From: Haloferula helveola
GTDB lineage: Bacteria > Verrucomicrobiota > Verrucomicrobiia > Verrucomicrobiales > Akkermansiaceae
Length of the DNA: 64,000 bases
Assembly: GCF_037076345.1 (NCBI RefSeq)
Contig: NZ_AP024702.1
Span: forward strand, 62,001 to 126,000
Direction: 5' to 3'
Both the position numbers and the translations under genes were made by a program. Under the pieces are notes generated by a model, which was not told the DNA's origin, did no database searches, and saw nothing but the letters and a program-made list of their open reading frames with translations. Positions 36,330 through 63,087 of this stretch are shown here, one piece after another (position 1 is the stretch's first letter; every line of letters starts with the position of its first letter).

Positions 36330-37033
36330 CCCCCCATCACCTCAAACCCCTCGGCGTAGGCCGCACCGACTTCCGCCCCGATCTCGCGGTTGGTCGCGAG
36401 GATGCGTTCGTCGAAACCGATGCCCCTTGATCGCAAATTGCGCTCGTGCTGGGAATGATGGCATCTCAGAAGCTCCGCCTTCCACTCGGCGGCTTCGTCA
36501 TCGAATTCCGTCACCAGATCCAAGCGCATCCCAAAGGTCTTCGGGTCGCGGACGAGTAACGCAAGCGGCTTCTTCTGCTGCTCGCCCCGCCACCGCTCGA
36601 AGCAGCGGAATACCCGGCGGTGGTCGGCATTGCTGTCTCTACCATGCGGCAGTACCACCGCCTCCGGACCCACCCGATCCAGGATCTTCCGGATCGCGGC
36701 ATCGTTCGCTTCATCATCACGGATGTAGCCCGCCTCGTCCTCCGGGAGCCGATGAAACTTTAGACGTTCCAACGGCAGGCCAAAGCGCTCGCAGGACGCC
36801 TTCTGCTCGGACTCGCGGGCTGCCGTCTTTTCTTCCCAACTCTCCGCAAAAACATCCTCAACACCGCTGGCTCCCCCACTGAGAACTTCGAGGAACAGAT
36901 CGCATCCGCGCTCGGCAAGAAGACGCATCGTCACCGCCACGACCTCGAAGTCATCCGGATGCGGCGCGAGGACAAGCCACCGTCGCGGCTCGTCCCACGG
37001 ACCCGGATCGAGACCGAAACGCGCCGGCTTCAT
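36326..37033 (-). CDS. PIG-L family deacetylase
   Basis: 235 residues, cytoplasmic by lack of a signal. Zinc ligands are in [17 protein letters not shown] (His25, Asp28) and in [15 protein letters not shown] (second zinc His). Family members remove N-acetyl groups from GlcNAc-containing substrates. The start at 37033 overlaps the stop of the GH33-GH20 gene by 4 bp (ATGA), so the two are translationally coupled. This suggests it acts on an amino sugar released by the fused sialidase/hexosaminidase, for example GlcNAc, though direct evidence is lacking. Its last codons touch the end of the convergent DUF1501 gene. Confidence 0.85.
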
Positions 37034-40000
37034 GGCTCCACCTTGACCGGTTCGAGCGGCAGGAAGGTGAACATCCACTTCCAGCCGTCGCGCTTCCTCG
37101 GAGCCTTGACCAGGATCCGGTTCCAGCCCTTCTGCAGAGGGACCATCGTCGGCTCCCGATAGGCATAGGCTTCGTCCACGAAAGGCACCTCGTCGGCCCA
37201 CGTTTGCTTCGGCTTGTAGGAAGGGTTCTTCCACTCGGGGGGCGCCAGCGCGTTGCCATTCACCCAGACCATCCCGTCCTCGTGACTCCACTTGCCCTCG
37301 ACCGTCGGACCGCAGCGCCGGTCGGATGTCGATGGCGTGTTGAAACCGATCCAGCACGCAAGATCCATCGCTTCGTCGGACCAGATGCGCGTCTCGGCGT
37401 AAGCCGTTCCCTCCTGCGGATTGCCTTCCAGCACCCCGCCGGTTCCGAAGAAGTGCCGGAAGTGAATCGTCGCACCCACCACTTCGACCGGCTCGAACTG
37501 CGTGCCGCCGAGCTCGACCGACTCGACGCGCTCCATCTTCTCCGGAGGGAAAGACTTGGCCGTATCGCCACCATGCGGGAAAGGTCCGATCACCCGCCAG
37601 CGCAACGGAGTCTGCGCGAGATACGGGAAAGGCCATTGCTCGCCGAGACGAGCACCAAGCGCGACCAAGTCCCGCTCGAAAAGCCGGAAAGCCTCGACGC
37701 GCGGATCACCCGGAGCCGGCAGCCGGGCCCAGAGATCCGGATGGGCCTCGGGCAGCCCACGCCAAAAGCGTTCCGCGCCGGCAACCATCGCCGGCACCAC
37801 CGGGCTCTGACGGTAAACATTTTCTTCGCCCCCGGTGTTGATGTCCGGCCAGTGGCAAAGGATCGAACCCAGCGCCTGGCCGTCGCCTTCCGGCCTCCAG
37901 CACGGCTGCCAGAAGAACGCATGCGGCGGCCCGTCGAGGAAGTCCATGTGGTTCACGTAGTTCACCGCCGAGTCGATGAAGCGCACCCCTGACACTGGGC
38001 GGCCCTTCGCCCACAGCTGGGTGATGCAATTCTTATCCGGCAATGCACCCGGGCGCCATACGACCACATCGAGATCGTGCCCTCTCAAGGTCTCGACCAT
38101 CTTCGGCAGGAAAGCCTTGTTGGTGATACCCACTTCATCGGAGCCGAGATGAAAACGTGGCACCGCGATTCCTTCTTCCCGCAGCGGCTTGATCACCTCG
38201 TCGCAGAACTCGTCGAGAAGATCCGCGCAGATCTCCGTCCCGCGAGGGTCCTGCATGCCGAACCCGAACGCCTTGCCGAAATATTCGCTGTGCCCGGGCA
38301 TGTCGATTTCGGGAAGCACCTCGACACCCAGCGAGTGTGCCTTGCGAAACAGTCCGCGGATTTCCTCGAAGGTGTAGAACCTCCCCGGCTGGCGGGTTTC
38401 CCGATACGAGGACTTCTTGTTGAGTTCGGGATGACGCTTCGACTCGATCCGATACCCCGGGTAATCGGTCAGGTGCCAGTGGAAGACGTTGAGCTTGAGT
38501 CCGGCCATCGTCTCGACGAAGCGCTCGACCGTTTCGATCTCCTGAAAGTTGCGCCCGACGTCGTGCATGAAGCCGCGCACCGGAAACGCCGGCCAGTCGT
38601 GAATCGTGACCAGCGGCACGCTGCCTTCCGCGGCAAGTTGCTCAAGGGTCGCAAGACCACGAAGCACACCCAGATCGCTCGCCCCTTGGATCCGCACGCC
38701 ATCACCGGCGACCGACAACGCATACGCCTCGGGACCTCCCGCGACCGGGCCAATCGAAATCCTCAGGTCAAGATCACCCTCGGGCAGCGCGTCCAACTTC
38801 CGCTTCGCTACGCCTGGATCGCCGACGACCTGCACCCTCCATCCACTCCCCTCGATCGCACCCTCGCCCCACTCGACTTCGCGGGGAAACGGGACCAGCG
38901 GCACCGGAGAATCCCGCCGTGCGCCGCTTCCGGGATCAAATGCGTCAACCGGATCGCCTTCGAGCAACTCCTTCACCGGCAGTCGGAGGAAGTAGATTTC
39001 CGCAGGCCCTTCGTAGAGCACTCCCAAGTGACCCTCACCGACCGGAGCCAGGCAGGAGTAGCCCGAACCACTACGAATGTCGTACAAAGCATGGAACTGC
39101 TCCGGCCAGCTCATCCCCTTGTCGTCGGACACCTTCACGGTCATCGTGTGCCGACCTCGGGTGGTCGCCGGATTTGAGAAGAAGAGCCGCTCGCCGACAC
39201 CGGGCACATCCCACTTCAGCAGGCTCGCCATGCAGACGCTCTCGGGCAGCGCCTTCCGGTCCGTCGGGTGAAACTCCCACGTTTTGCCGAGATCACGCGT
39301 GGTGGCCACGGTCCGGGCGCCACCGCGGTTGTCGCGGCAGTTGATCATCAGCACGCCTTCCTCGACCTCAACCAGTTGGGCTTCGGTGGTGTTGTCCTTC
39401 ACACCGGTGCCGATGTGCCACGTCTCGCCGCGGTCCTTCGACCAGATTAGGGTCGACCATGGCAGACCGTCGCCCGCCCGATACTGTGCCGGAAACACCA
39501 AGGTGCCGTCGGCCATCGTGATTCCGGTCCCCGGACCGTCGAGCAGGAGCCGCCAGTCCGGATTCTTCACCTCTTTGGTGATGTTCCTCGGCTTCGACCA
39601 AGTCTTGCCGTCGTCGTCGCTATGGACCAGCACGAGCTGGCCCGTCTGGGACGGTTCGAGCCCGGGCCCCGAGCCGTTCCATGCCCGGTTGCCGTGACTC
39701 CACAATGCCGCAATCCAGATCCTTCCTGTTTTGCGGTCCACGAAGACGCAGGGATCACCGACGCCGTCACCTCCACCCTTGCCCATGTCGATTCCAACCC
39801 GCATCGGCTCCCAGTTCGCACCTCCATCGGTCGATCGTGAAACGCCCACGTCGATGTTCCCGGGAAGATCGCCGGCGTTATCATAGCGGATGTCATAAAC
39901 CGCGATCAGCGAACCATCGTTGGTCTCCACCATGCCGGGGATCCGGTAGGCTTTCGATCCGTCATCACCACGCTGTCGCAGCGCCACCCCGATTCGCTGG

Positions 40001-40911
40001 GATCCCGGAGCCGAACCCGCGACCACCTCCGTCACCTCCCCCGACGCCTTGATTCGGGCGACCGACGCATCGACACACCCATCGATGTCCGCCTCCTCCT
40101 TGAGGCGCACCGAAACCCAGAACCAGTTGTCGCCCGCCTGAAGCGCCCGTCCTCCGGAGAAGGCCACGGTTTCACCCGTAACCTCGCCACCGAACCGTTC
40201 GCCGAATCCACCGGTCGGGTCCTCCTGCCCGCGCAAAAGCTCCACAGCAGCGACATCCTCCAACCGGCTCGTGCCCTGCAGGCTCACCTCGACCGCCTCA
40301 AGATTCAGCGGCTCCAGGGCGCCCTCGGTCACGATCTTCAATCCGAGCACCGGGTTGATGTTCTTGCCCCTGAGCACCGGAACAACCGGTTGGGAAACGC
40401 TCACCTCCTTGACGCGCATCGGCTTCTCCTCCGTCACGTCGATCAGATCCAGCATCACGCCCGACTTCTCCGGCGCCGTGCACCGGAACCGCAACGTGGC
40501 GGTTCCCGCGGCCAGCGGCACTTCGACCCGTGTGTGGAAACCACCCACCTTCACCACAGCGTCGCCGTTCCAGATTTCGACGAACCGTCCGTCGGTCCCC
40601 GCCGCATCGATCCGGAACTGGAACGGAGCATGTGCCGTCCATCTCTCCGACCAGAACGAAAGCCGTGCGCGCTTCGCGAGTGGAGAGGCGAGCGACAGTT
40701 CCATCGCCTGCTCACCCCCTCCCACCAGACGCAAGGAACGGTTCCCCGCCTTGGCGTGCCCGGAGTGAACCTCAGCCTGACCTTGCGCTGCCGACCAAAT
40801 TCCGACCTCCGATTCGAGACGTTCGAAGCCACCCGCCGGCAGATCCTCGAAGGACTCCGCACCCAATGCCGCCCACGACAGGGACAGCCAGATCCATTTC
40901 ACAAACTTCAT
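37030..40911 (-). CDS. Bifunctional exo-sialidase (GH33) / beta-N-acetylhexosaminidase (GH20) fusion
   Basis: 1293 residues from MKFVKWIWLSLSWAALGAES (signal peptide). Order: jelly-roll binding domain (about 20-150), sialidase N-terminal domain (about 160-300), GH33 six-blade propeller (about 310-665) with the RIP arginine in KAYRIPGMVE (about 320) and Asp boxes STDGGANW, SDDDGKTW, SKDRGETW, TRDLGKTW, SDDKGMSW; then GH20 (about 667-1080) with FMHDVGRNFQEIETV, LNVFHWHLTDYPGYRIESKRHPEL and the catalytic Asp-Glu pair in HLGSDEVG (about 924); then a C-terminal binding-like domain (IGPFPHGGD onward). It can remove sialic acid and then the exposed HexNAc from host glycans, probably outside the cell. 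A dyad operator at 40959-40977 lies 47 bp before the ATG. Confidence 0.9.
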   Translation of the reverse strand: MKFVKWIWLSLSWAALGAESFEDLPAGGFERLESEVGIWSAAQGQAEVHSGHAKAGNRSLRLVGGGEQAMELSLASPLAKRARLSFWSERWTAHAPFQFRIDAAGTDGRFVEIWNGDAVVKVGGFHTRVEVPLAAGTATLRFRCTAPEKSGVMLDLIDVTEEKPMRVKEVSVSQPVVPVLRGKNINPVLGLKIVTEGALEPLNLEAVEVSLQGTSRLEDVAAVELLRGQEDPTGGFGERFGGEVTGETVAFSGGRALQAGDNWFWVSVRLKEEADIDGCVDASVARIKASGEVTEVVAGSAPGSQRIGVALRQRGDDGSKAYRIPGMVETNDGSLIAVYDIRYDNAGDLPGNIDVGVSRSTDGGANWEPMRVGIDMGKGGGDGVGDPCVFVDRKTGRIWIAALWSHGNRAWNGSGPGLEPSQTGQLVLVHSDDDGKTWSKPRNITKEVKNPDWRLLLDGPGTGITMADGTLVFPAQYRAGDGLPWSTLIWSKDRGETWHIGTGVKDNTTEAQLVEVEEGVLMINCRDNRGGARTVATTRDLGKTWEFHPTDRKALPESVCMASLLKWDVPGVGERLFFSNPATTRGRHTMTVKVSDDKGMSWPEQFHALYDIRSGSGYSCLAPVGEGHLGVLYEGPAEIYFLRLPVKELLEGDPVDAFDPGSGARRDSPVPLVPFPREVEWGEGAIEGSGWRVQVVGDPGVAKRKLDALPEGDLDLRISIGPVAGGPEAYALSVAGDGVRIQGASDLGVLRGLATLEQLAAEGSVPLVTIHDWPAFPVRGFMHDVGRNFQEIETVERFVETMAGLKLNVFHWHLTDYPGYRIESKRHPELNKKSSYRETRQPGRFYTFEEIRGLFRKAHSLGVEVLPEIDMPGHSEYFGKAFGFGMQDPRGTEICADLLDEFCDEVIKPLREEGIAVPRFHLGSDEVGITNKAFLPKMVETLRGHDLDVVVWRPGALPDKNCITQLWAKGRPVSGVRFIDSAVNYVNHMDFLDGPPHAFFWQPCWRPEGDGQALGSILCHWPDINTGGEENVYRQSPVVPAMVAGAERFWRGLPEAHPDLWARLPAPGDPRVEAFRLFERDLVALGARLGEQWPFPYLAQTPLRWRVIGPFPHGGDTAKSFPPEKMERVESVELGGTQFEPVEVVGATIHFRHFFGTGGVLEGNPQEGTAYAETRIWSDEAMDLACWIGFNTPSTSDRRCGPTVEGKWSHEDGMVWVNGNALAPPEWKNPSYKPKQTWADEVPFVDEAYAYREPTMVPLQKGWNRILVKAPRKRDGWKWMFTFLPLEPVKVEP

Positions 40912-40958
40912 GCGCCGACTAAACGATCGGGCCTGCCCGCTTCCGTTCATCAACCCAC

Positions 40959-40977
40959 TGGTTTGCTCATCCATCCA
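40959..40977. promoter_or_regulatory. Putative operator 1, in front of the GH33-GH20 gene
   Basis: Dyad TGGTTTG-CTCAT-CCATCCA, 47 bp upstream of the minus-strand ATG at 40911 and overlapping the stop region of the esterase gene. Shares its right half with operator 4. Confidence 0.55.
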
Positions 40978-42145
40978 GTCCGGCAGCCGACCGTCCGAGC
41001 CGCTGGCCGACGGGTTTCTTGTCGGGCGGATGCACATCCGGGCTATCCCAACCGAGATCCTTGGTCTCGATCAACTCCACATGGTCCATCTTCGCAGCGG
41101 CCCGGGACTGGACTCCGCGAAACTCCGGCCACCACTTGCGGCTCGGGTCGTTGCCCCCGATCCGCGGCAACTGGACCATGTGAAAGGGCAATTCCGCTTG
41201 TCCGAGTTGCGCGCGCCAGCCTTCGACCAGATCCGTGATCAGACGTTCGTTCCACGCATCGTCGTGGACCGCCGCATTGGTCTCGCCCTGATACCAGAGC
41301 ACCCCGGTGAAGGGAAAACCGCGCCACCAACGGACACCGCTTTCGTAGAGGAATCCCGGGGTGAAAGGATGCTTCGCGTCCCGGCCCGCGAGATTGAGTT
41401 GGGCCCGCCCCCGTGCCCATGCGCCGATCCTCTCCGACTCGATCCACGACGGTTTCAGTAGTTCCGCATACTCGTTGCGGGCTTCGAGCGTCTCTGTCGG
41501 CAGCCACGCCTCCGCGCCACTTCCGCCCACCGAATTGTCGATCAGCCCGACCGGCACACCGGCGGTGGCATGGATCACCTTTCCCGCCCACCAGCCGACC
41601 GCCGAAAACTCGCGAGCCGAAGCTTCCGTCGCAACCTTCCACTCGCCTTGAAAGCAACGCCCGGGGGTCAGGCGATCCACCTCGGCATCGGTATACGCAC
41701 GACCACCCGTCGGAACCGCGGTCAGGTTGAGCAGACGGATCGTCGGGACCTCCCCTGCCGTCTTCGCTTCCTCCGCGCCGCCCACCGCACGGCCCAGCGG
41801 AAAATCCATGTTCGACTGGCCGGAGCACAGCCATACCTGACCTACGAGGATGTCTTCGAGAGCCACCGATTCGCCCCCGGAGGTGACCTTGAGAACGGCA
41901 GCCGCATCACTGGCCGGAAGCGACGGCATCGTGACCCGCCACTTGCCTTGGTCACCCGCCTTCCCCGAAATCTCGTTCTTTCCCAAAGCCACCGTGACGT
42001 CCGCTCCCGGCTCCGCATCTCCCCAAACCTCGAACGGCCTCTCCATCGGGAGCACCATGTGGGAGCCGAAGGGCCGGCCGAATTCCAAAGCGGAAACGGG
42101 CAAAACTAGGAATGCCGCTAGAAAAAGACCGAGCTTGTGAGGCAT
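40967..42145 (-). CDS. Sialate O-acetylesterase (SASA family)
   Basis: Removes O-acetyl groups from sialic acids so that sialidases and lyases can act. 392 residues from MPHKLGLFLAAFLVLPVSA (signal peptide). SGNH/GDSL-type catalytic wording is complete: nucleophile Ser in LCSGQSNMDFPLG, oxyanion block DNSVGGSGAEAWLP, LWYQGETNA, and the C-terminal Asp-His in WDSPDVHPPDKKPVGQRLG. The start at 42145 is chosen because it begins the signal peptide. It is upstream of the GH33-GH20 gene on the same strand with a 55-bp gap, and divergent from a PEP-CTERM gene with one operator exactly between them. Confidence 0.9.
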   Translation of the reverse strand: MPHKLGLFLAAFLVLPVSALEFGRPFGSHMVLPMERPFEVWGDAEPGADVTVALGKNEISGKAGDQGKWRVTMPSLPASDAAAVLKVTSGGESVALEDILVGQVWLCSGQSNMDFPLGRAVGGAEEAKTAGEVPTIRLLNLTAVPTGGRAYTDAEVDRLTPGRCFQGEWKVATEASAREFSAVGWWAGKVIHATAGVPVGLIDNSVGGSGAEAWLPTETLEARNEYAELLKPSWIESERIGAWARGRAQLNLAGRDAKHPFTPGFLYESGVRWWRGFPFTGVLWYQGETNAAVHDDAWNERLITDLVEGWRAQLGQAELPFHMVQLPRIGGNDPSRKWWPEFRGVQSRAAAKMDHVELIETKDLGWDSPDVHPPDKKPVGQRLGRSAAGLDG

Positions 42146-42192
42146 GGAGCCAATCCACACAGCCTGAAGCGGAACAGCAAGCACCGCCAAAC

Positions 42193-43114: not shown

Positions 43115-46100
43115 ATGCGACTCTTCAACATGCGCTTGCGCCGACCGGCTCCACTCGCCGCCCTCACCCTTGCCGTTTGCCTGACCGTCTGTTCTGCCGT
43201 CCGGGCTGAGCACTATCGCGTCTTCGTTCTCACCGGCCAATCTAACTCCCTCGGCACGACCAACGGGTCGGAAGCCGACGTCACTCCCGGCACCGACCCT
43301 GCCGATTCGCGGCTGCGGTTCTTCTGGCACAACGTTGCCGATGCCTCGACCTCACTGGGTGACTCCGGCGGAATGTTCTCAGATCTTCAGTCGCAGCAAG
43401 GCGGCTACTATCCGGGCAGTAGCACTCACTGGGGACCGGAGATCGGGTTCGGACGCACGCTTGTCCGGGCCGGAGTGGAGAATGTCGCGATCATCAAGGC
43501 GTCCCGCGGCGGCGGCGGAAACACCAACTGGTCGAAGGCCGCGACGGGCCACATGTACTCCCATGTCGTCAGCACGGTCGGCACCGCGACCTCCGCACTG
43601 AGCGGCGAAGGACACACCTTCGAGATCGCCGGCCTGCTCTACCTGCAGGGGGAAAGCGACAACGCCAGCGAGGCGGACGTCGCGGGCACCCGCTTCAAGG
43701 AACTCGTCGACAACCTCCGGACCGACCTTCCGAACGCCGCAAGCATGCGTGCGGTGATCGGCGGCATCGCCGCATCCGGAGGCACCCGGGACACCGTCCG
43801 CGCGCGCCACGAGGCGATCGCGACCGCAACCTCCTACATCGACTTCTTCCCCAATCTGGATCTTCAGGCCGAAGTCACCGACGGCCTGCATTTCAACAAG
43901 GCCGCGAAACTCCGGATCGGCGAGCGTTTCGCCCAGGCATTCCTCGACAACGGCACAGTGGATCGGCGCTACGGGAAACTCACCTTCATCGGCGACTCGA
44001 TCACGCAGGGCGGCAACGGCGACCACCCAAGCTACCGCTATCTGGTCTTCAAGAGGTTGGCGGAAAAGGGCGTGCCGATCGATGCCGCGACCGGCTACCG
44101 GTTCACCGGGTCCGTGACCGGGCCGCAGACGACCCCCACGCTCACCACCCCCGACGTCAACGGCCAGACCTTCGAGAACGTCCACGACGGCCACTACGGC
44201 TGGCGCGCGTCGTGGATCAACGGCCGCATCCGGCTACCCGCCAACCGCCGTTCGAACAACCGGGGCGAGGGAACGCTGCTCAACTGGACCGGCCAGGCAG
44301 CGCCGCAGACTTACGGCATCAGCGGACCCGACCTCACGGTCGCCTACCCCGACCCGACCGCGACGGGAACAGGAAACACCGGCACGACCTACACGCCCGA
44401 CACGGTCTCGATCATGATCGGCATCAATGATCTCGGCGACGACCCGTCATCCGCGGTCCAAGTGATCGCCGACATCGGCACGCTGGTCGACCAGCTCCGG
44501 TCGGCGAATCCGAATGTTCGGATTTTCATCCATCAACTGCTCCACACCAACCAGACCCAGGCCATGCGCGATGGAGTCGATGCGGTGAACGGACAACTCC
44601 AGTCGCTTGCCGACACCAAGAACGCATCCTCGGCGACATCACCCGTGTGGATCATCGACGCGAGCACCGGTTTCGACCCGGTGACCATGACCTACGACAA
44701 CGTCCATCCGAATGCCGCCGGCGAAGTTCATGTGGGCGATCGAATCGCGGCCGCGCTCGGTGTGATCGAAAGCCCGATGCCATCCGCCAGCGCGCTCCCG
44801 CCGCACCTCGAGCGGGACTCGTCGGCTTTTGACACCACCTTCGAGGGGAACGAAATCTGGGACGGAAGCGGCTACGTCAACAACTGGTCGCGGACCGGCA
44901 CCCTGACCGAGTCGCTCCCAACCGCCACCGACCTCCGCATCATCCACCCATCGACCAACGGCCGCTGGATCGAAGGCACCAACGCCGGGTGGTCGGCCGC
45001 CGCCGCGGGATCATGGACTTTCGAAGCGCGACTCAACTTCAACTCGAACGCCAACGGTTTCGCGCTCTGGCTCGGAACCGGGTCGAAGCGGATCATCATC
45101 GAGATCCACGGTGATCGCACCCAGGACAACGGAGGCGAGACCTTCAACGTCGCGCAGAACAACATCGATGGTGCCTTCCACGCATTCCGCGTGATCCACG
45201 ATGCCGATGCGGCGAAGTACCATGTCTTTCACGACAACGTACGCCTTACCCCGCTGGAAGGCGTGGACTACGACCAAACCGCCACGGACAACCGTCTGAT
45301 CCTCGGCGACTACACGAGCGGGACCTTCGGCAACGGCTTCGATACGACCATCGACCATGTCAGTTTTACTCCGGGGACGTGGCTGCCGGCCGGAGTCGAC
45401 ACGGATGGCAATGGTATGCCCGACGCTTGGGAGTATCAGTATTTCTCCAACCTCACCGGCACCGACCCTTACGGCGACCCCGATGACGACGGCTCGGGCA
45501 ACCTCGAGGAGTTCCAGAACGGCACCGACCCGCTGGTCGCGGACACCCTGACCTCGAATCTCCCGGTCTTCCTGATCGCGGGCGCCGGCAATGCACTGGG
45601 CAGCCCATCGACGACGGTTCTGAACTCCACACCCGTCGGATCCCACCCGGCGGAGCAAAGTGGAGGTGTCTGGTTTCACGATGGGTCCGGATGGAGCACC
45701 CTCTCCAACGCCCCGGACGGATCGTTCGGTCCTGAAATCGGCTTCGCCCGGATGCTCTGGGATGCGGGAGCCCGCGAGTTCGGCATCGTGAAATCCGCGG
45801 TCGCCAGTGGCGGCAACACGCTCTGGATCCAGGGCGACCCCGCAGGCACGGCTTACGATGGGCTCGTCTCGGTCGCGACCGCCGCATCGTCTTCGCCGCC
45901 CGGCGACTTTGAGGGCCTCACCTTCCGCTCGCTGATCTACCTGCAGGGCGAAGACAACGACAGCAGCGAGGCAGCGGCCGCCGACGCGCGATTCTCGGAC
46001 CTGCTGGACAATCTGAAGACCGACATCTCCGGCGCTTCGACCCTGACCGGCATCATCGGGGAAATCGCCGGAAGCGGCAGCGATCGTGACACGACCCGCT

Positions 46101-48868
46101 CTCTCCTCGCCTCATTGGCCGCATCCCGAAGCGACATCGGTTTCGCAAGCGCATCGGGAGCGAGCACTCACAACATCGACGGCCTCGAGATTCACTACGA
46201 TGCCGATAGCCTCCTCCTCATCGGCGCGCGTACGGCCGCGGAGGCGTTCGACATGGGAGTGCTGCCGGCACCGCTGCCGGCATGGGCGAATGTTCACGCC
46301 TGGTTCGTCGCCGATCATGGGCGGGAGTTTGCAGGTAATGGAACGGTCGCCCGTCTTGGCAACCTGCGCAACGGTTCCGGCAACCGGGATCTCGCACGCA
46401 CGGTCGGGCTTCCTCCGGCGCCCCGCCCCGTCACCAGCGGTGCAGGCGGACCACGCGAGGCCCTGCGTTTCGACGGAACCAACGACCTTTGGGCAAATTC
46501 CTCGACGGAGTTTGGCACGATCGCGGGTCCACGCAGCGTGGCCATCCTCTGTCGCGTCACGTCCGAAGATGGTGGCTTTCTCTTCGACGGAAGCACAGGA
46601 ACCGGGAAGACACGGGCAAAGGTCGACGCCGGGAACTGGCAAGTCGGCTGCTCGACTTCCGGCATGGCGTGGAACGGCGCGGAGGAAACTTCCGTCGCCC
46701 GCGACACCGGCGTCTGGCAGCAACACGTCTTCACCTACGATTCCGACGGATCGGGCGGCACCGACATCACGCACTGGATCGACGGTGCCCAAGTCGCCAC
46801 CCTGAACGATTCCCAGAGCGCGAATCTCGGCGGCTTCATTCTCGGATCGAACGGCGGCTCCCCTTTCACGCGGAAGTCCACCGACATCGCCGAGGTCGTG
46901 ATCTTCAACACCGCACTCGACGCCGCAGCGATCGCGGAACTCACCACCGATTGGGATACCGGCTGGGGCGAGATTGCCGGCCCTCCGTTCTCCGCCTCGG
47001 TGAGCCAGAACCCGCGCGATGTGGCACGATTCGGCCAACACGACCTGCTGGAGATCGAAATCGGAAACGACCTCGCAGCCTCGACCACGCTAGAGCAAGT
47101 CGAGATTCAGCTGAGCCCCGGCACTCGCGAGTCGGTCACGGATGTATCGCTGGTCGGCGAGGATGGCACCTTGCTCGGCACGATCTCCGAGCCGGCCACC
47201 GACCTCCTGACATTCTCGCCGTCACTCGTCCTCGCGGACGAACTGCAAACCGTCCGCATCGCGGTCACACCAAAACGCTACGCCGCGCTCGGCACCACTC
47301 TCGATGCCTCCGTAATCAATCTCACCTTTTCCGGAAGCAACGCCGGCACGCTGGTTCCGACAAACGCCGACCCCGCCGGAGAACTCACGCTCGCCCTTGT
47401 TCCGCTCTTCTCCGACGTCCGCACCAGCGGTGAAGGTGGAGTGAACACCTACCGGATCCCGGGTATCGTCTGCGACGGCGACGGGGTTCTGCACTCCGTT
47501 TACGATCATCGCTACGCGGGTGGCTCGGATCTGCCGGCCGACGTCGATGTCGGCTACGCCCGCAGCACGGACGGCGGCGCGACCTGGTCAGCTTCACAGG
47601 TGATCCTCGACTATGATTCCAGCGTCCCCGGTTCCGCAGGAAACGGCGTTGGCGACCCGTGCATTCTCTGGGACCCGATCACCGACACCCTGTGGGTTGC
47701 CGCATTGTGGTCGTTCGGAAACAACGGCTACAACGGCTCCGGGCCGGGCACCGATCCGGCCGACACCGGACAATACGTTCTCACCAAATCGACCGATGGA
47801 GGCGCGACCTGGTCGGCGCCGATCAACATCACGGTCCCCGTGAAAGATGACCCGAACTGGCGTCTCATTTTCCAAGGCCCCGGGCACGGCCTCGCCATGC
47901 GCGATGGCACGCTCGTCTTCCCTTCCCAGTACCGCGACGCCTCCGGGACGGTCCGCGTCTGTTCGGTCTTCAGCACCGACCACGGCGCCACCTGGGACTT
48001 CGGCTCGGGCGTGCCAACCAGCTCGCCACAGACCAACGAGAACACCGTCTGCGAACTCGACGACGGACGACTCCTTTTTTCCATGCGCACCCCCGCGGGA
48101 TCGAACGGCCAGCGTGCATGGATCCGCTATCAACCCGGTGGTGCGACGCCCATGCGCGACGGCTCGTGGGAAAGCCTTTTCCGGCTCCCCTCCGTTCCGG
48201 ACCCTGTCTGTCAGGGCAGCGTGATCCAGTGGACCAGCACCCACCGGGGCGACCCGTCCGAATGGGTGCTGTTCGGAAACCCGGGCAGTTCAAGCTCGCG
48301 CATCAACTATACTCTCCGTATTTCCGCCGATGGCGGCGACTCGTGGCCGGTGTCGCGACTGCTCTACGGCGGATCCTCCGCCTACTCGTCGCTTTGCATC
48401 CTTCCCGATCGCTCGATCGGAATCCTGTTCGAGAAGGACAACTACACCCGCATCACCTTCGCCCGTGTCGAGGAAGCGTGGCTGCTGGATCCCGCGACCG
48501 ACAGCGATGGTGACAGCATGCCGGACTCTTGGGAAATCCTCATGGGACTCGACCCGGCGACCGACGACTCGCTACTCGATCCCGATGGCGACGGACAGAC
48601 CAATGCCTTCGAACACGAAGCCGGCACCCACCCCCTCGATGCCTCATCGTTTTTCGCGCTTTCGTCCTACGGAGTGGGCGGGAGTATCGACCTCGAGTGG
48701 CACAGCGTTCCCGGTCGTTCCTATGCCATTGAGGAAAGCACCACGCTCGGCGCATGGCAGGACGTCGCAGGTTTCGAGCGGATTCAAGCGACGTCGAACC
48801 TGACTGCGACGAGCATTCCCCTCACGGGTGATCCAAGACGCTTCGTCAGGGTTCGGGCGCTTCGCTAA
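43115..48868 (+). CDS. Multidomain sialoglycan enzyme: SASA esterase, GDSL, LamG, inactive SASA, LamG, GH33 sialidase
   Basis: 1917 residues (1912 if started at 43130). After a signal peptide: SASA esterase (about 30-285, Ser43 in LTGQSNSLG, His259 in DGLHFNKAA); GDSL/SGNH hydrolase (about 288-550, FIGDSITQGG, IGINDLG, DNVHPNAAG); LamG-like sandwich with a DGNGMPDAWE loop (about 560-810); second SASA-like domain (about 815-1048) in which the Ser position is Gly825 (IAGAGNALG), so it is probably non-catalytic; LamG (about 1055-1285); sialidase N-terminal domain (about 1290-1425); GH33 (about 1428-1790, NTYRIPGIV and Asp boxes STDGGATW, STDGGATW, STDHGATW, SADGGDSW); and a C-terminal DSDGDSMPDSWE module ending in a short FVRVRALR tail. 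It joins de-O-acetylation and sialic acid release in one secreted chain. Assignments are by motif. Confidence 0.85.
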   Translation: MRLFNMRLRRPAPLAALTLAVCLTVCSAVRAEHYRVFVLTGQSNSLGTTNGSEADVTPGTDPADSRLRFFWHNVADASTSLGDSGGMFSDLQSQQGGYYPGSSTHWGPEIGFGRTLVRAGVENVAIIKASRGGGGNTNWSKAATGHMYSHVVSTVGTATSALSGEGHTFEIAGLLYLQGESDNASEADVAGTRFKELVDNLRTDLPNAASMRAVIGGIAASGGTRDTVRARHEAIATATSYIDFFPNLDLQAEVTDGLHFNKAAKLRIGERFAQAFLDNGTVDRRYGKLTFIGDSITQGGNGDHPSYRYLVFKRLAEKGVPIDAATGYRFTGSVTGPQTTPTLTTPDVNGQTFENVHDGHYGWRASWINGRIRLPANRRSNNRGEGTLLNWTGQAAPQTYGISGPDLTVAYPDPTATGTGNTGTTYTPDTVSIMIGINDLGDDPSSAVQVIADIGTLVDQLRSANPNVRIFIHQLLHTNQTQAMRDGVDAVNGQLQSLADTKNASSATSPVWIIDASTGFDPVTMTYDNVHPNAAGEVHVGDRIAAALGVIESPMPSASALPPHLERDSSAFDTTFEGNEIWDGSGYVNNWSRTGTLTESLPTATDLRIIHPSTNGRWIEGTNAGWSAAAAGSWTFEARLNFNSNANGFALWLGTGSKRIIIEIHGDRTQDNGGETFNVAQNNIDGAFHAFRVIHDADAAKYHVFHDNVRLTPLEGVDYDQTATDNRLILGDYTSGTFGNGFDTTIDHVSFTPGTWLPAGVDTDGNGMPDAWEYQYFSNLTGTDPYGDPDDDGSGNLEEFQNGTDPLVADTLTSNLPVFLIAGAGNALGSPSTTVLNSTPVGSHPAEQSGGVWFHDGSGWSTLSNAPDGSFGPEIGFARMLWDAGAREFGIVKSAVASGGNTLWIQGDPAGTAYDGLVSVATAASSSPPGDFEGLTFRSLIYLQGEDNDSSEAAAADARFSDLLDNLKTDISGASTLTGIIGEIAGSGSDRDTTRSLLASLAASRSDIGFASASGASTHNIDGLEIHYDADSLLLIGARTAAEAFDMGVLPAPLPAWANVHAWFVADHGREFAGNGTVARLGNLRNGSGNRDLARTVGLPPAPRPVTSGAGGPREALRFDGTNDLWANSSTEFGTIAGPRSVAILCRVTSEDGGFLFDGSTGTGKTRAKVDAGNWQVGCSTSGMAWNGAEETSVARDTGVWQQHVFTYDSDGSGGTDITHWIDGAQVATLNDSQSANLGGFILGSNGGSPFTRKSTDIAEVVIFNTALDAAAIAELTTDWDTGWGEIAGPPFSASVSQNPRDVARFGQHDLLEIEIGNDLAASTTLEQVEIQLSPGTRESVTDVSLVGEDGTLLGTISEPATDLLTFSPSLVLADELQTVRIAVTPKRYAALGTTLDASVINLTFSGSNAGTLVPTNADPAGELTLALVPLFSDVRTSGEGGVNTYRIPGIVCDGDGVLHSVYDHRYAGGSDLPADVDVGYARSTDGGATWSASQVILDYDSSVPGSAGNGVGDPCILWDPITDTLWVAALWSFGNNGYNGSGPGTDPADTGQYVLTKSTDGGATWSAPINITVPVKDDPNWRLIFQGPGHGLAMRDGTLVFPSQYRDASGTVRVCSVFSTDHGATWDFGSGVPTSSPQTNENTVCELDDGRLLFSMRTPAGSNGQRAWIRYQPGGATPMRDGSWESLFRLPSVPDPVCQGSVIQWTSTHRGDPSEWVLFGNPGSSSSRINYTLRISADGGDSWPVSRLLYGGSSAYSSLCILPDRSIGILFEKDNYTRITFARVEEAWLLDPATDSDGDSMPDSWEILMGLDPATDDSLLDPDGDGQTNAFEHEAGTHPLDASSFFALSSYGVGGSIDLEWHSVPGRSYAIEESTTLGAWQDVAGFERIQATSNLTATSIPLTGDPRRFVRVRALR

Positions 48869-48882
48869 ACCGGTTGCCAAAC

Positions 48883-48901
48883 TGGTTTGCCAACCCATCC
48901 A
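48883..48901. promoter_or_regulatory. Putative operator 4, in front of repeat-protein gene 48954
   Basis: Dyad TGGTTTG-CCAAC-CCATCCA, 52 bp before the ATG at 48954. It lies inside a wider 24-bp near-palindrome (48872-48895), so more than one dimer could bind. Confidence 0.5.
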
Positions 48902-53085: not shown

Positions 53086-53161
53086 AGAATCCGCCGTCTC
53101 CGCAGCGTCAACGATCTGCCACCGTGTGCCGGATCACGAGACTTCCCATTCCCTTCTCCGG

Positions 53162-54247
53162 ATGCCCGCCCTGCCGCAATCCAAGTTCGCCCAGCTCTCC
53201 GAATTGATCCGCGAACGGATCGAGACCGGTGAGTGGACGGACAAGCTCCCGTCCGAAAGAATCCTCGCCGACGAGTTTCTCGTGAGTCGGACGACTTTGC
53301 GGCGTGCCCTTGAGATCCTGACACGCGACGGCCTGATCGAGGCTCCGTCGGCACGCTGCACCCTGCGCGCGATCCGGAAGTCCAAGGCACGTCGTACCGC
53401 GCCCACCCACCGCGAGGTCTGCTTTCTGACGCCGACACTCCACGTCTCTCCTCTGCTCACCGAGCAGATCGCGACGATGAGAGGCCTGTTCACCCAAGCC
53501 GGGATCAAGGTCGCATCGGAAGAGAGCGCATCGCTGGTCGACCGCCGCGACCCTTCCGCCCACCTGCGCCGCATCGTTGCCCGCCACCCGGACGCGATGT
53601 GGGTCCTGCACAAGATGCCGGAGTCGGTGCAGCGTTGGTTTCAAGCGAATGGCCTGCCCACCGTCATCTTCGGCTCGGCGTTTCCGGAAGTTTCTCTGCC
53701 CAGCGTGGATGTCGACTTCCGTGCCGCCGCCCATCACGCAGCCGGTCTTTGTCTCGCCCGGGGCTGTCGACGCATCGGACTGCTGATTCACCGCACTCCG
53801 CTGGCAGGTGACGAGAAAACGGTCAGCGCCGTTTCCGCCGTGCTCACCCGGCAAGGTTCGCCTGCTCCCAAAGTCATGCGTCACGACTCGAATCGCGCGC
53901 GCCTGATGGATGCTCTCGACCGCGAGTTCCTCGACAACCCGGATGCCTGCGACGCTTTGATCGTGGCCAATCACCACCACCTCCTCACCGTGCAGTCGCA
54001 CCTCTTGCATCGCGGCATCCGGTTGCCGGAGCAGCTCTCCCTCGTCTATCTCAGCAACGACCCGTCGGCCGAGCGACTCTCTCCACTGCCATTGCGCTAC
54101 GAGTCCGGTCCCGCGCTCATCCGGCGCTTGGTGGCGGCGGTAAAAACCCTCGCCGAAGGCGGCAATCCACCCTCCTCCTCCATCATCCCCAAGCTGCTCG
54201 ATGGCCAGACCATGAGAAGGGCAACTGGTCCGGAAAAGGACCAATGA
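53162..54247 (+). CDS. GntR/LacI-hybrid transcriptional regulator B
   Basis: 361 residues from MPALPQSKFAQLSELI; earlier in-frame GTG starts are possible but add no domain. GntR winged helix at about 8-65 (ERIETGEWTDKLPSERILADEFLVSRTTLRRALEILTRDGLIEA), LacI-like effector domain from about 80 (LTPTLHVSPLL, AAAHHAAGLCLARGCRRIGLL, LPEQLSLVYLSNDPS). It has the same length and arrangement as regulator A, which it faces, so the pair arose by duplication and inversion. An operator overlaps its last codons (54226-54243) in front of the next sialidase. Probably sialic-acid responsive; direction of effect unknown. Confidence 0.82.
   Translation: MPALPQSKFAQLSELIRERIETGEWTDKLPSERILADEFLVSRTTLRRALEILTRDGLIEAPSARCTLRAIRKSKARRTAPTHREVCFLTPTLHVSPLLTEQIATMRGLFTQAGIKVASEESASLVDRRDPSAHLRRIVARHPDAMWVLHKMPESVQRWFQANGLPTVIFGSAFPEVSLPSVDVDFRAAAHHAAGLCLARGCRRIGLLIHRTPLAGDEKTVSAVSAVLTRQGSPAPKVMRHDSNRARLMDALDREFLDNPDACDALIVANHHHLLTVQSHLLHRGIRLPEQLSLVYLSNDPSAERLSPLPLRYESGPALIRRLVAAVKTLAEGGNPPSSSIIPKLLDGQTMRRATGPEKDQ
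54226..54243. promoter_or_regulatory. Putative operator 7, in front of sialidase gene 54291
   Basis: Dyad TGGTCC-GGAAAA-GGACCA with perfect 6-bp arms, 18 rather than 19 bases. It lies in the last codons of regulator B and 47 bp before the ATG at 54291. Confidence 0.6.
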
Positions 54248-54290
54248 CTGACAGATCCAAGCTGCCTTTCGCAGGCGTATTTTGCCTCCG

Positions 54291-56537
54291 ATGAATCCAA
54301 AGCTTCAAATCCCGGATCCACGGCACGTCCTCGCCTTGTCCGCCCTCTTTCTCTCCAGCATCGGTCTCGCCGAAGAACCATCGCTGACTGAAACGACCGT
54401 GTTCGCCAACGAGGCCGACGGCTACCCGGTGTTCCGCATCCCGGCCATCGTCCGATCGAATGCGAACACCCTGCTCGCCTTCTGCGAGGGCCGCGCGGGC
54501 TATGGCGACGGTGGCAACATCGATCTCGTTCTCAAACGCTCCACCGACAACGGTGTCACTTGGGGACCGGTCATTCTGGTCCACGAAGAGGGAGGCACCG
54601 CCGGCATCACCATCGGCAATCCGGCACCGGTGGTCGACCGCTCCACAGGCCACATCCATCTGCTGTTCTGCCGGGAGAACGACACCGTGTTCCACACCGT
54701 CTCCACCGACGACGGGCTCACCTGGTCGAGTCGCACCGAAATCACGGACAACGTCAAACAGGAGAGTTGGGGTTGGTATGCGACGGGTCCTGTGCATGGC
54801 GTGCAGCTCGCCCGCGGTGAGCAGGCAGGCCGCCTCGTGATTCCCGCAAACCACCGCATCGGCCCGGATGGCTCGGACTCCGGGGCTTTCGGTTCACAGA
54901 TCCTCTACTCCGACGACCACGGTGCGACTTGGCACATGGACGCGGTGTTCGAGGCCGGCAACGGCGCAGCACCGAACGAAACCACGCTGGTCGAACTGGC
55001 TCCATCCGCCACGGGCGGCTCCCGCGTTTACATCAACTCCCGCGACTACGGCAGCGATCCCGGCAACCGTTCCGAAGCATGGTCCGAGGACGGCGGCACC
55101 AGCTACTCGGGACCTTTCGATGGCAACCCGCACTTTGTCACGCCTGTCTGCCAAGGCGCGCTCCTGCGCTACAGTTCGACCGATGACGGAGACAGCGTGA
55201 GCCGCATCCTCTTCTCCAGTCCGAACGGAGGATCACGTTCGAATGGAGCGATCTGGGTCTCCACCGACGAAGCGGCCACATGGAGCCAGCCGAAGCCGAT
55301 CCATGCCGGAGCCTACGCCTACTCCGACATGGTCCGCACCGCGGACGACCACCTCGGTGTGCTGTTCGAAACGGGCACCAGCTCCGCCGCCTACCAGACG
55401 ATCAACTTCATCCGCGCCAACGAGGCGTGGATCGATACTCCTCCGCCGCCTGCCGAGAATCCCGGATCCGCACTGTGGAATCTCGAGGAAACGGAACCCG
55501 GACAGACCTGCCCGACCACGGATGAGGCGATCCTCGACGTCCACCCTGAAGAGAACGGTCTCCACCTCACCGCCACCACAGCCTTTGCCTCCACAGCCGG
55601 CGCTGCGGACTTCGGAAACGGCCGCGCGCTCTCGTTCCAAAACGACGGCGGATTGCGCCTCACCGATGGCGAAAGCGACAACCGCTTCGACTACGGAGCG
55701 AACGACTCGTTCACCATCGAGGCGGTATGCCGCATTCCGTCCGGTCACACCGCGACCGACGCCATCGTCGCCAAGGACCTCGGGCCGACCTCACCCTCGT
55801 GGTGGCTGCGCCTCGAGAACGGAAAGCTCCGCTTCCTCGTCAGCGACAACGCCACCGAAGCGTTCCTTACTTCGACTGCCAACGTGAACGACGGTGAGTG
55901 GCATCACATCGCCGCCGTCCGTGACGTCTCCGATCCCGCATCGCGCGAACTCCGACTCTACATCAACGGTGCGCCCGCCGGCGAGACTACCGATTCGACG
56001 ACTGGCAGCCTCGCCAACACCCAGACCCTGTGGATCGGCCGCTTCAACGCCTCCGGCCGAGAGCTCACGGGCGACATCGACTTCGTCCGGATCACCCCGG
56101 CTGCCCTCGCCCCGGAGGATTTCTGCGGCAAGAAGACCCAGTTCGACGCCGACGACGACAGCATCCCGGACAGCTTCGAGCGCGAGGAGTCGGGATCGCT
56201 CGCACCGATGGGACCGGGCGACCTCGACCTCGACACCACATCCGACCTGCTCGAGTTCGCTCTGGCAACCGACCCGACCGTTCCGGATGCTCCCGCACTG
56301 ACAGTCGCCCACCTGGGCACCTCGGTGGAGGTCAGCACGCGCCAACGGCTGCTGCCCGACTGGCTCGGATTGCAACTCACCATCTCCGATGACCTTCGTA
56401 CTTGGTCGGATGCCGGGTCATCCGTGAGCCTTGCCGCTCTTGATGACGGCATCTGGGAGCGCACCGACCGCATCGACTTCCCCGCAGGCACGCCCGCACG
56501 GGGATTCTTCCGTTACGAACTGCGCGAGCTTCCCTGA
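54291..56537 (+). CDS. Exo-sialidase (GH33) with LamG domain
   Basis: 748 residues from MNPKLQIPDP; a TTG nine bases upstream is less likely. Signal peptide (VLALSALFLSSIGLAEE), then a GH33 propeller (about 30-385) with the RIP arginine in PVFRIPAIV and Asp boxes STDNGVTW, STDDGLTW, SDDHGATW and STDEAATW; a Glu and a Tyr needed for the nucleophile pair are plausible in NETTLVEL and GAYAYSDMV. A LamG-like sandwich follows (about 395-615; FTIEAVCRIPSGHT, WHHIAAVRDVSD), then a DADDDSIPDSFE loop and the C-terminal module. It lacks the N-terminal adhesin-like domain of the other two sialidases, so it may differ in linkage or target. An operator lies 47 bp upstream. Confidence 0.9.
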   Translation: MNPKLQIPDPRHVLALSALFLSSIGLAEEPSLTETTVFANEADGYPVFRIPAIVRSNANTLLAFCEGRAGYGDGGNIDLVLKRSTDNGVTWGPVILVHEEGGTAGITIGNPAPVVDRSTGHIHLLFCRENDTVFHTVSTDDGLTWSSRTEITDNVKQESWGWYATGPVHGVQLARGEQAGRLVIPANHRIGPDGSDSGAFGSQILYSDDHGATWHMDAVFEAGNGAAPNETTLVELAPSATGGSRVYINSRDYGSDPGNRSEAWSEDGGTSYSGPFDGNPHFVTPVCQGALLRYSSTDDGDSVSRILFSSPNGGSRSNGAIWVSTDEAATWSQPKPIHAGAYAYSDMVRTADDHLGVLFETGTSSAAYQTINFIRANEAWIDTPPPPAENPGSALWNLEETEPGQTCPTTDEAILDVHPEENGLHLTATTAFASTAGAADFGNGRALSFQNDGGLRLTDGESDNRFDYGANDSFTIEAVCRIPSGHTATDAIVAKDLGPTSPSWWLRLENGKLRFLVSDNATEAFLTSTANVNDGEWHHIAAVRDVSDPASRELRLYINGAPAGETTDSTTGSLANTQTLWIGRFNASGRELTGDIDFVRITPAALAPEDFCGKKTQFDADDDSIPDSFEREESGSLAPMGPGDLDLDTTSDLLEFALATDPTVPDAPALTVAHLGTSVEVSTRQRLLPDWLGLQLTISDDLRTWSDAGSSVSLAALDDGIWERTDRIDFPAGTPARGFFRYELRELP

Positions 56538-59659: not shown

Positions 59660-62194
59660 GTGATCCGAATCCTCACCGCCATCCTCTTGCTCGTGCATCT
59701 TCCAACCGCGCGGGCCAGCCTCGACTGGACCGACCTGCCGGCCCTGCCCGACCCCACGGGCTTCGCCGGAGCCTTCGCCGGCGTGTCCGCTGATGCCCTG
59801 ATCGTTGGAGGCGGAGCGAACTTCCCGGACGCGGCGCCTTGGGATGGCGGCAGCAAGGTTTGGCATGACCGGGTCTTCGTTCTGACAAAAACCGACGGCG
59901 CCTGGACCGAAGCCGGACGCCTCCCCCGCCCGCTGGCCTATGGTGTGTCGGTGACCACCGGCGCCGGCTTGGTTTGTATCGGTGGGTCGGATGCCGACCG
60001 TCACTACGCGGATGTGTTCCGACTGACATGGGGCGGCTCGAAGATCGTAACCGAGACGCTTCCTCCCCTGCCCGTGCCCTTGGCGAATATGGCGGGCGCT
60101 CTTGTCAATGGTGCGGTCCACATCATCGGCGGAACGGATTCGCCTGACGCCACGACAGCCTCGAACCGCCACTTTGCTTTCGCGGGAGACCAGTGGACCG
60201 AACTCGCACCTCTTCCGACCGATGGCCGGATTCTCCCCGTTGCCGCCACGAGGGACGGATCGTTCTTTGTCTTCTCAGGCGCCTCGCTGGCTCCTGACAG
60301 TGACGGCAAGCCGGTCCGCACCTACCTGCGTGACGCTTGGAAATACGATGCATCTGGTAATTGGGTCCAGCTTGCCGACATACCCCGCGCCGCGGTCGCC
60401 GCGCCCTCGCCCGCTCCCGCCATCGGTGCATCCCATCTCGTCGTGATCGGCGGCGACGACGGCTCCCTGGCCGATTTCCAACCGAAGTCCGAACATCCGG
60501 GATTTCTCCACGAGATCCTCGCCTACGACACCATCACCGACACCTGGACTCCGACGGTCGAGTTGCCTTCCGCCGTGCGCCCGCCGGTCACGGCTCCGGT
60601 CACGGAGTGGAACGGCAACTTCGTGATTGCCAGCGGTGAAGTGAGACCTGCGGTCCGTTCGCCCCAGGTCATCGCCCTCAAGCCACAAGCCAACAAGTCC
60701 GCCTTCGGGGCCATCAACTGGTCGATCGTCGGCATCTACCTCGCCGGCATGATCGGCATCGGCGTGTTCTTCATGAAACGGGAGGCGGCAGGTTCGACCG
60801 AAGCCTACTTCCGGGGCGGCCAACGCATTCCCTCGTGGGTCGCCGGCCTCTCGATCTTCGCCACGATGCTCAGCGCGCTGACCTTCATGGGGATTCCCGC
60901 AAGAGCCTACCGCACCGACATCTCGTGGTATCTCGGCCAACTGCCGATCCTGCTCATCGTTCCGCTGGTCGCGGCCTGCTACCTCCCGTTCTTCCGCAAG
61001 CTCGACCTCACTTCGGCCTACGAATACCTCGAGCGACGATTCTCACTCGCGTGCCGGGTGTTCGCCTCGCTGTCCTTCACCGCTTTCCACCTCGGACGGA
61101 TCGCGATCGTCCTCTACCTCCCGGCCCTCGCGCTCGCGGCGGTCTCCGATATCAATGTCACCACCGCCATCATCGTCATCGGCGTGCTGTGCCTGATCTA
61201 CACCGTGATCGGCGGGATCGAGGCGGTCGTCTGGACCGATGCCATCCAGGCCCTCGTGCTGATGGCGGGCGCCCTGCTCTGCTTCGGGCTCGCGGCTTTC
61301 CGTGTCGACGGTGGCCCGGCCGGCTTGTTCGAGATCGCGAGTCAGGATCACAAGCTGTTCGAGAATCTCCGCTGGGATTCGTTCGACATCGCCGACGGCA
61401 CCACGTCGGTCGTGATCCTCTTCATCGCATTCTTCTTCAACTCCTTCGTCCCCTACACCTCCAGCCAGGATGTCGTGCAACGCTACGTCACCACCCCCGA
61501 CCTTCCTGCCGCACGCAAGTCGCTGAAGGTCACGATGTGGATGTCGGTGTTCGGATCGCTTGTCTTCTTCCTGTTGGGCACCGCGATCTACGCCTTCTAC
61601 AAAACCCACCCGGCAAGACTCGATCCGACCCTCACCGCAGGCGACTCGATCCTTCCCTTCTACATCGTCCGCGAGCTTCCGGTGGGCATCTCCGGATTGG
61701 TAATCGCGGCCATTTTCGCCGCCGCGCAATCCACGGTCTCCTCCTCGCTCAACAGCGTGGCAACTGCCTTCGTGAAGGACTTCGACTCCCGCCTGTTCCG
61801 CCCGGGACGTTCGGACCACAGCTACCTCCGCTCCGCCCAAGCCGCGGTGATCATCGCAGGAGTGATCGGTATCGGCATCGCGGTGACCATGGCCCAAGCC
61901 AACATCGAGTCCGCCTTCAAGACCTTCAACTCGATGGTCGGCCTGACCGCCGGCTCGCTTGGCGGACTGTTCGCCCTCGGGGTCTTCACCCGGCGCAGCC
62001 ACGGCACCGGCGCGATCATCGGCGCGGTCACCGGACTCGTGACGGTGCTCATTCTCCATCTCACCGGCGCTCCTGTGACCGGTCTGCTCTACGCCTTCAT
62101 CGGCTTCTCCAGCTGCTTCCTCGTCGGCTGGATCGCCAGCCTCGTGCTTCCCGGCCACGGCGACTCCACGCTTTCCCTTCGAAATCCATCATGA
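59660..62194 (+). CDS. Fused Kelch mutarotase (NanM-like) and sodium/solute symporter for sialic acid
   Basis: 844 residues starting with GTG. A signal peptide (MIRILTAILLLVHLPTARAS) leads into a Kelch six-blade propeller of the cyclically permuted mutarotase type (about 20-345; DRVFVLTKTDGAWTEAGRLPRPLAYG, NGAVHIIGGT, HEILAYDTITDTWTPTVELP). After ALKPQANKSA a solute:sodium symporter begins (about 350-840) with 12 or more membrane segments, TSAYEYLERRFS, FNSFVPYTSSQDVVQRYVTT and the sodium-site-type serines in AAQSTVSSSLNSVATAF. The first symporter helix should start on the periplasmic side in this family, so the propeller would sit outside the inner membrane. The chain can convert alpha-Neu5Ac to beta and import it. 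It overlaps nanA by 4 bp. Confidence 0.88.
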   Translation: MIRILTAILLLVHLPTARASLDWTDLPALPDPTGFAGAFAGVSADALIVGGGANFPDAAPWDGGSKVWHDRVFVLTKTDGAWTEAGRLPRPLAYGVSVTTGAGLVCIGGSDADRHYADVFRLTWGGSKIVTETLPPLPVPLANMAGALVNGAVHIIGGTDSPDATTASNRHFAFAGDQWTELAPLPTDGRILPVAATRDGSFFVFSGASLAPDSDGKPVRTYLRDAWKYDASGNWVQLADIPRAAVAAPSPAPAIGASHLVVIGGDDGSLADFQPKSEHPGFLHEILAYDTITDTWTPTVELPSAVRPPVTAPVTEWNGNFVIASGEVRPAVRSPQVIALKPQANKSAFGAINWSIVGIYLAGMIGIGVFFMKREAAGSTEAYFRGGQRIPSWVAGLSIFATMLSALTFMGIPARAYRTDISWYLGQLPILLIVPLVAACYLPFFRKLDLTSAYEYLERRFSLACRVFASLSFTAFHLGRIAIVLYLPALALAAVSDINVTTAIIVIGVLCLIYTVIGGIEAVVWTDAIQALVLMAGALLCFGLAAFRVDGGPAGLFEIASQDHKLFENLRWDSFDIADGTTSVVILFIAFFFNSFVPYTSSQDVVQRYVTTPDLPAARKSLKVTMWMSVFGSLVFFLLGTAIYAFYKTHPARLDPTLTAGDSILPFYIVRELPVGISGLVIAAIFAAAQSTVSSSLNSVATAFVKDFDSRLFRPGRSDHSYLRSAQAAVIIAGVIGIGIAVTMAQANIESAFKTFNSMVGLTAGSLGGLFALGVFTRRSHGTGAIIGAVTGLVTVLILHLTGAPVTGLLYAFIGFSSCFLVGWIASLVLPGHGDSTLSLRNPS

Positions 62195-63087
62195 AGTTCC
62201 AACTTAACGGCCTCGTCGCCGCCACCCACACCCCTTTCCATCCCGACGGATCGCTCGCTTCGGAAGTCGTGCCGGTCCAGGCCGCGCATCTTGCCGAACA
62301 GGGCATCCGCAGCGTGTTCATCACCGGTTCGACCGGTGAAGCCCACTCGCTGACCCGCGACGAGCGCCTTGCGATGTTCACCGCGTGGGCCAAGGCCGGT
62401 CCCGAGCACGACATCAAGGTCGTCGCGCATGTCGGATCGAACTGCATCGAGGACGCGAAGGCTTTCGCTGCCGCCGCTGCGGATCTCGGACTCGACGCCA
62501 TCTCCGCTCTCGCTCCCAGCTACTACAAACCGGCCAGCATCGAGGATCTCGTGGAATGCTGCGGTGCGATCGCCTCGGCCGCCCCATCCCTTCCCTTCTA
62601 CTACTACGACATCCCGGTGCTTACCGGTGTCCGGTTCCCGATGTCGGACTTCCTCAAATCGGCAACGGGGCAGATCCCCAATCTGGTCGGAATCAAGTTC
62701 ACCAACGACGACCTCGACGAATTTCAGGTCGCCCGTTCGGTCGGTGACTTCGATCTACCCTGGGGCATCGACGAGAAGCTCCTCGACGCGCTCCAGACGG
62801 GTGCGACCGGTGCGGTCGGCTCGTCCTACAACTTCGCGGCCCCGCTTTATCGCGATCTGATCGATGCCTACGAGGCCGGCGACATCGACACCGCACGGAA
62901 GCTTCAGCAGCAGGCGATCGACCTGATCGATACCCTCGCCGCGATCGGCTACCTTGGCGCCGCCAAGGCGGTGATGGGCTGGCAGGGCGTGCCGGTCGGT
63001 CCGGCACGGCTGCCGATTTCGAATCCGACCCCGGCACAGCTCGACGCCCTACGCGAAAAGCTCCATCCTCCGGTTCTGCAATCGTGA
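62191..63087 (+). CDS. nanA: N-acetylneuraminate lyase
   Basis: Splits Neu5Ac into ManNAc and pyruvate in the cytoplasm. 298 residues of the DapA/NanA class. VAATHTPFHPDGSL opens the barrel, the GxxGE substrate site is FITGSTGEAHSLTRDER (about 44-60), the Tyr is in PFYYYDIPVLTG (about 136-147) and the Schiff-base Lys is in NLVGIKFTNDDLDEF (about 160-174). The wording is typical of NanA rather than dihydrodipicolinate synthase, and the setting confirms it. Its ATG overlaps the transporter stop (ATGA) and its stop overlaps the next start (GTGA), so the three genes are translationally coupled. Confidence 0.93.
   Translation: MKFQLNGLVAATHTPFHPDGSLASEVVPVQAAHLAEQGIRSVFITGSTGEAHSLTRDERLAMFTAWAKAGPEHDIKVVAHVGSNCIEDAKAFAAAAADLGLDAISALAPSYYKPASIEDLVECCGAIASAAPSLPFYYYDIPVLTGVRFPMSDFLKSATGQIPNLVGIKFTNDDLDEFQVARSVGDFDLPWGIDEKLLDALQTGATGAVGSSYNFAAPLYRDLIDAYEAGDIDTARKLQQQAIDLIDTLAAIGYLGAAKAVMGWQGVPVGPARLPISNPTPAQLDALREKLHPPVLQS

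Follow-up and report, generated by a model that had tools for sequence, protein, structure and literature searches.

The question raised by this locus is why one secreted protein should carry two SASA esterase domains, the second without its catalytic serine, together with a GDSL hydrolase and a sialidase, and how such a chain came about. The gene lies in a stretch of 64,000 nucleotides of the Haloferula helveola genome (the window; all positions below refer to it). It encodes a protein whose residues 1-31 form a putative signal peptide (identified by eye), followed by domains in the order SASA1-GDSL-LamG-TSP3-SASA2-LamG-GH33-TSP3. The features of the gene are as follows.

43115..48868, plus strand: the whole gene, an intact open reading frame for a secreted multidomain protein of 1917 aa
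43211..43966, plus strand: SASA1, residues 33-284 (Pfam PF03629, alignment, model)
43967..44764, plus strand: GDSL/SGNH domain, residues 285-550 (Pfam PF13472/PF00657, motif check)
44807..45385, plus strand: LamG-like domain 1, residues 565-757, conserved in the A proteins described below
45392..45544, plus strand: TSP3-like acidic linker, residues 760-810, at the join of the A and B parents
45557..46264, plus strand: SASA2, residues 815-1050, a degenerate esterase (Pfam PF03629, model)
45584..45589, plus strand: Ala824-Gly825, replacing the Block I Gln-Ser pair of SASA2
46193..46195, plus strand: His1027, the catalytic His of SASA2, invariant in dead and live copies
46283..46984, plus strand: LamG-like domain 2, residues 1057-1290, conserved in all B proteins
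46985..47410, plus strand: beta domain before the sialidase, residues 1291-1432
47411..48484, plus strand: GH33 sialidase, residues 1433-1790 (phmmer, alignment, Asp boxes)
48485..48865, plus strand: C-terminal TSP3 repeat and small domain, residues 1791-1917 (weak PF18884 TSP3_bac), with conserved counterparts at the C-termini of B proteins

The first-pass annotation had read this chain as SASA-GDSL-LamG-SASA-LamG-GH33, and Pfam, an AlphaFold2 model and Foldseek bear that order out, with LamG-like domain 1 giving no Pfam match. Searched as a whole, the chain matches SASA in two stretches (2.2e-38), GDSL_2 (1.6e-16) and the BNR_2 sialidase profile (3.1e-22); run singly, SASA1 reaches 1.9e-25 and SASA2 6.7e-12. 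LamG-like domain 1 resembles the LamG/PEP-CTERM protein encoded at 42251-43057, though only weakly (BLAST E 0.002), and LamG-like domain 2 is a concanavalin-like, lectin-like sandwich in the model and in its Foldseek matches. Segments similar to the acidic linker occur near the end of stand-alone A proteins. The beta domain is the fastest-evolving part of the chain.

Three of the domains retain the residues expected of working enzymes. SASA1 carries GQSN at 41-44, with the serine at position 43 as had been noted from the sequence, together with QGES at 178-181, Asp256 and His259; the Block I GQS, Block III QGE and Block V D..H motifs of PF03629 esterases are thus all present, the model matches 2APJ with TMt 0.71, and SASA1 is apparently an active esterase. 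The GDSL domain keeps Ser295, Asn438, Asp528 and His531 within the motifs GDS (293-295), GIND (436-439) and DNVHP (528-532), that is, the SGNH Ser, Asn and His blocks; its fold matches the CE3 acetyl esterase 5B5S (TMt 0.75), the middle of the model being of low confidence. The GH33 domain, which matches Bacteroidota-type sialidases by phmmer (4.6e-64), has Arg1447, Asp1472, Glu1642, Arg1658, Arg1729, Tyr1757 and four Asp boxes; alignment with 6MNJ, 6MYV and 4FJ6 shows that the catalytic residues are kept, which in this family act as the Arg triad, the Tyr/Glu pair and the Asp acid/base. A GDSL hydrolase and a sialidase thus do accompany the SASA domains, as first described, and Pfam agrees.

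SASA2 is clearly a member of the same family. It is 33% identical to SASA1 over 254 columns (E 9e-36), it scores 45.9 bits against PF03629 (cut-off 24.8), and the SASA2-LamG2 model, with a mean pLDDT of 90.1, matches 2APJ (TMt 0.71) and 1ZMB (TMt 0.63). Where an active enzyme has its Block I Gln and Ser, SASA2 reads GAGN at 823-826: the serine has become Gly825, as the first reading had it, and, in addition, the glutamine has become Ala824. The domain retains QGED (QGE at 944-946), Asp1022 and His1027. Across all six genomes with dead copies, His1027, QGE 944-946, GGN 899-901, Asn826 and Trp904 are invariant, and the equivalent of Asp1022 is Asp in most and Glu in genome G156. Compared with live relatives, this SASA2 also lacks a conserved Arg-Gly next to the glycines of Block II; the Arg, at position 896, is gone in 5/6 dead copies, and two loops are missing from the clade. 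Position 894 (45794-45796), also beside Block II, is Ser in 6/6 dead copies and Ala in 11/11 live ones, a clade-specific difference. In SASA enzymes the Gln adjacent to the Block I Ser makes up the oxyanion hole, where the QGE motif holds it, and substitution of these residues abrogates activity (PMC9487903). Since both residues needed for activity are lost, SASA2 should be dead, and the first suggestion of a probably dead esterase is well supported by the losses in SASA2 beside the intact residues of SASA1, GDSL and GH33.

The origin of the chain can be traced among 260 genomes of the window's family, searched together with samples of its order and phylum. Both halves exist in the family as separate genes, parent A (SASA1-GDSL-LamG1-TSP3) and parent B (SASA2-LamG2-beta-GH33-TSP3). 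Genomes G131, G082 and G085 have both, unfused and 3-7 kb apart, with the SASA2 serine present; A and B are one gene in five genomes (the window's, G129, G013, G397 and G410). Other fusions occur as well: A is joined to GH33 without SASA2 in G059, G066 and G345, a diverged GDSL domain precedes a live SASA2 in G039, G071, G120 and G108, and the modules stand in a different order in G390. These comparisons indicate that the long gene arose by joining A to B. A recent tandem duplication within the gene was rejected: identity between the two SASA domains is only 33%, and the nearer relatives of each occur in proteins of their own. Every chain examined that combines SASA with GH33 has exactly one Ser-intact SASA domain, except in G156.

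All five fused proteins show Ser to Gly, loss of the Gln and deletion of the two loops, the Block I sequence being GAGN in the window and G410, GGGN in G129 and G397, and GSGN in G013. The Ser to Gly change is found in none of the 11 live B-type SASA2 domains outside the dead clade, which read GQSN but GESN in G082, and in none of ~20 SASA1 relatives; all SASA1 domains examined read GQSN. As the change is common to six genomes, sequencing error or chance behind Gly825 was ruled out. The sixth genome, G156, belongs to another family and encodes two unfused B-type proteins with a dead SASA2 (GAGN) and their own signal peptide; these copies (L085 and L086) lie on two short contigs, the second being truncated by the contig end. 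An A protein was not found in G156, a genome that is 82% complete.

The dead copies of the five fused proteins and of G156 form one clade (support 100/100, stem 0.66), which argues for a single loss event and rules out six independent ones; the five fused SASA1 domains likewise form one clade (97/96). As the G156 copies are unfused, the loss may have preceded the fusion, or the gene may have been split later, and the idea that fusion made SASA2 redundant so that it died is weakened. On the evidence of these trees there was one loss event, for which fusion alone is not the full explanation. No single clade unites the GH33 domains of the fused chains, which points to domain exchange and a history that is not simple. 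The GH33 domain of the fused G129 protein (L052) groups with that of an unfused G120 protein (L055; 89/89), against the SASA tree, and a GH33 exchange between these loci is possible.

The surroundings of the gene bear on the substrate. Positions 37030-64000 of the window hold a whole sialic-acid catabolic locus, of which the following genes flank the one described here.

37030..41037, minus strand: GH33-GH20 fusion (Pfam)
40967..42190, minus strand: a third SASA protein with GQSN intact (Pfam, translation)
53126..54247, plus strand: GntR regulator with a periplasmic-binding-protein-like domain (Pfam)
54282..56537, plus strand: a second GH33-LamG protein (Pfam)
59660..62194, plus strand: NanM-like kelch mutarotase fused to a sodium:solute symporter (Pfam, NCBIfam)
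62191..63087, plus strand: N-acetylneuraminate lyase-like protein (NanA; NCBIfam best match, below the equivalog cut-off)
63084..64000, plus strand: N-acylglucosamine 2-epimerase (AGE; NCBIfam), partial, running off the window

Three of the five BNR_2 matches in the genome fall in this locus, and the relatives in G013, G131, G056 and G030 are flanked by much of the same gene set. Two long autotransporter-type beta-strand-repeat proteins (48828-51812 and 56638-59556) also lie within the locus, and they have relatives in other genomes that likewise neighbour these genes. The 5.7 Mb genome has 51 SASA-profile matches, some of them pieces of one protein, a large repertoire of putative esterases. 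The locus content speaks for sialic acid as the substrate without proving mucin, a host or an acetyl position, and heavily O-acetylated mucin, the target first proposed, is a presumed one.

We suggest that the protein is probably a secreted O-acetylesterase/sialidase made by fusion of A and B, in which SASA2 lost catalysis once and was kept as a structural spacer. SASA1, and probably also the GDSL domain, would remove O-acetyl groups that block sialidases, GH33 would then release the sialic acid, and the rest of the locus would import and degrade it. As for the history, parent A would have been joined to parent B, in whose esterase the Block I Gln and Ser would have disappeared a single time, along with the two loops; SASA2 would since have been kept folded and non-catalytic, most likely as a spacer that positions the LamG-sialidase half. 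The combination of O-deacetylation and desialylation in one chain, proposed at the outset, is supported by the neighbouring genes and by analogy with SiaBb1 of Bifidobacterium bifidum, in which an SGNH O-acetylesterase and a GH33 domain share a chain and the esterase activity is reported to aid the release of sialic acid from mucin (PMC10298468, PMC7232152, PMC10017367).

Selection on SASA2 is informative here. By the Nei-Gojobori method, dN/dS is 0.12-0.27 in 5/6 pairs of dead SASA2, about twice the 0.08-0.12 of live SASA2 pairs; the most divergent dead pair reaches 0.43. Within the fused proteins the LamG domains give ~0.1-0.5 and GH33 0.07-0.13, rising to 0.29 for the most divergent pair. 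All of these values are rough, since several pairs have a dS close to saturation. The dead SASA2 is under the constraint of a non-catalytic module and is not decaying.

Purifying selection would also be expected if SASA2 were a binding module that retains sialosides, plain or O-acetylated, for the adjacent sialidase, much as the first-pass annotation had proposed in calling the dead copy a sialic-acid binder. The residues invariant in the six genomes are compatible with this, and an SGNH fold turned binder has a precedent in the RNA-binding OSK family (PMC9487903). However, the Block II Arg and two loops kept in live copies are lost, the kept residues may be structural, and two LamG-like domains are already present in the chain. 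We therefore consider a binding role unlikely; while the dead esterase and the coupling of deacetylation to desialylation held up in the first reading, sialic-acid binding found no positive support, though His1027, GGN and QGE stay. A more specific version, rather unlikely in our view, is that SASA2 is a new type of CBM derived from a sialate O-acetylesterase: after a single loss of catalysis within this verrucomicrobial order, it would now bind O-acetylated sialosides and present them to the esterase and sialidase of the same chain.

SASA2 could instead be a relaxed, non-functional leftover on its way to being lost. Its twofold faster evolution relative to live SASA2, the long stem of the dead clade and the three A-GH33 fusions that do without SASA2 would fit such a course, but the reading frame is open in all copies, the fold is predicted with high confidence, dN/dS is well below 1 and dead SASA2 is present in two families, which leaves this explanation quite improbable. 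That SASA2 is still an esterase with a relocated nucleophile is highly improbable: the candidate, Ser894, shared by all dead copies and no live one, lies in the strand leading to Block II (by the secondary structure of the model), and the His is kept in all dead copies and the Asp in most, but the oxyanion Gln is lost as well, and a single shared substitution in one clade may mean nothing.

The structural spacer thus remains our preferred reading of SASA2, and the chain as a whole can be set beside known systems. Compared by description, it resembles SiaBb1 in joining an esterase and a GH33 sialidase in one extracellular chain, but only one SGNH domain is described for SiaBb1, whereas the protein studied here, from the Verrucomicrobiota, has a second, dead SASA domain besides the first, as well as GDSL, a pair of LamG-like domains and TSP3 linkers. 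With the SASA family PF03629/CE6 (E. coli NanS 3PT5, At4g34215 2APJ and CAC0529 1ZMB) both SASA domains have the fold and Blocks III and V in common; SASA1 has all the motifs, while SASA2 is without the Block I Gln and Ser. Bacteroidota-type sialidases (4BBW, 4FJ6 and Sialidase26 6MYV) can be aligned with the whole of the GH33 domain, catalytic residues included, but those chains are without esterase domains. The GDSL domain belongs to the broad SGNH type that also includes the Phocaeicola vulgatus sialate O-acetylesterase (7PZG, 6NJC), but is closer to 5B5S. A literature search that took in few subscription papers turned up no description of this architecture in Verrucomicrobiota. The domains themselves and the coupling of esterase to sialidase are known; a double-SASA chain with one pseudo-esterase and a traceable origin appears to be new within that literature.

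The family offers a natural series, from separate parents with live esterases, through several esterase/sialidase fusions, to one lineage in which catalysis was lost and the fold kept. This makes it a testable case of the birth of a pseudoenzyme domain within a glycan-degrading chain. It also suggests a dedicated handling of O-acetylated sialic acids in little-studied Verrucomicrobiota.
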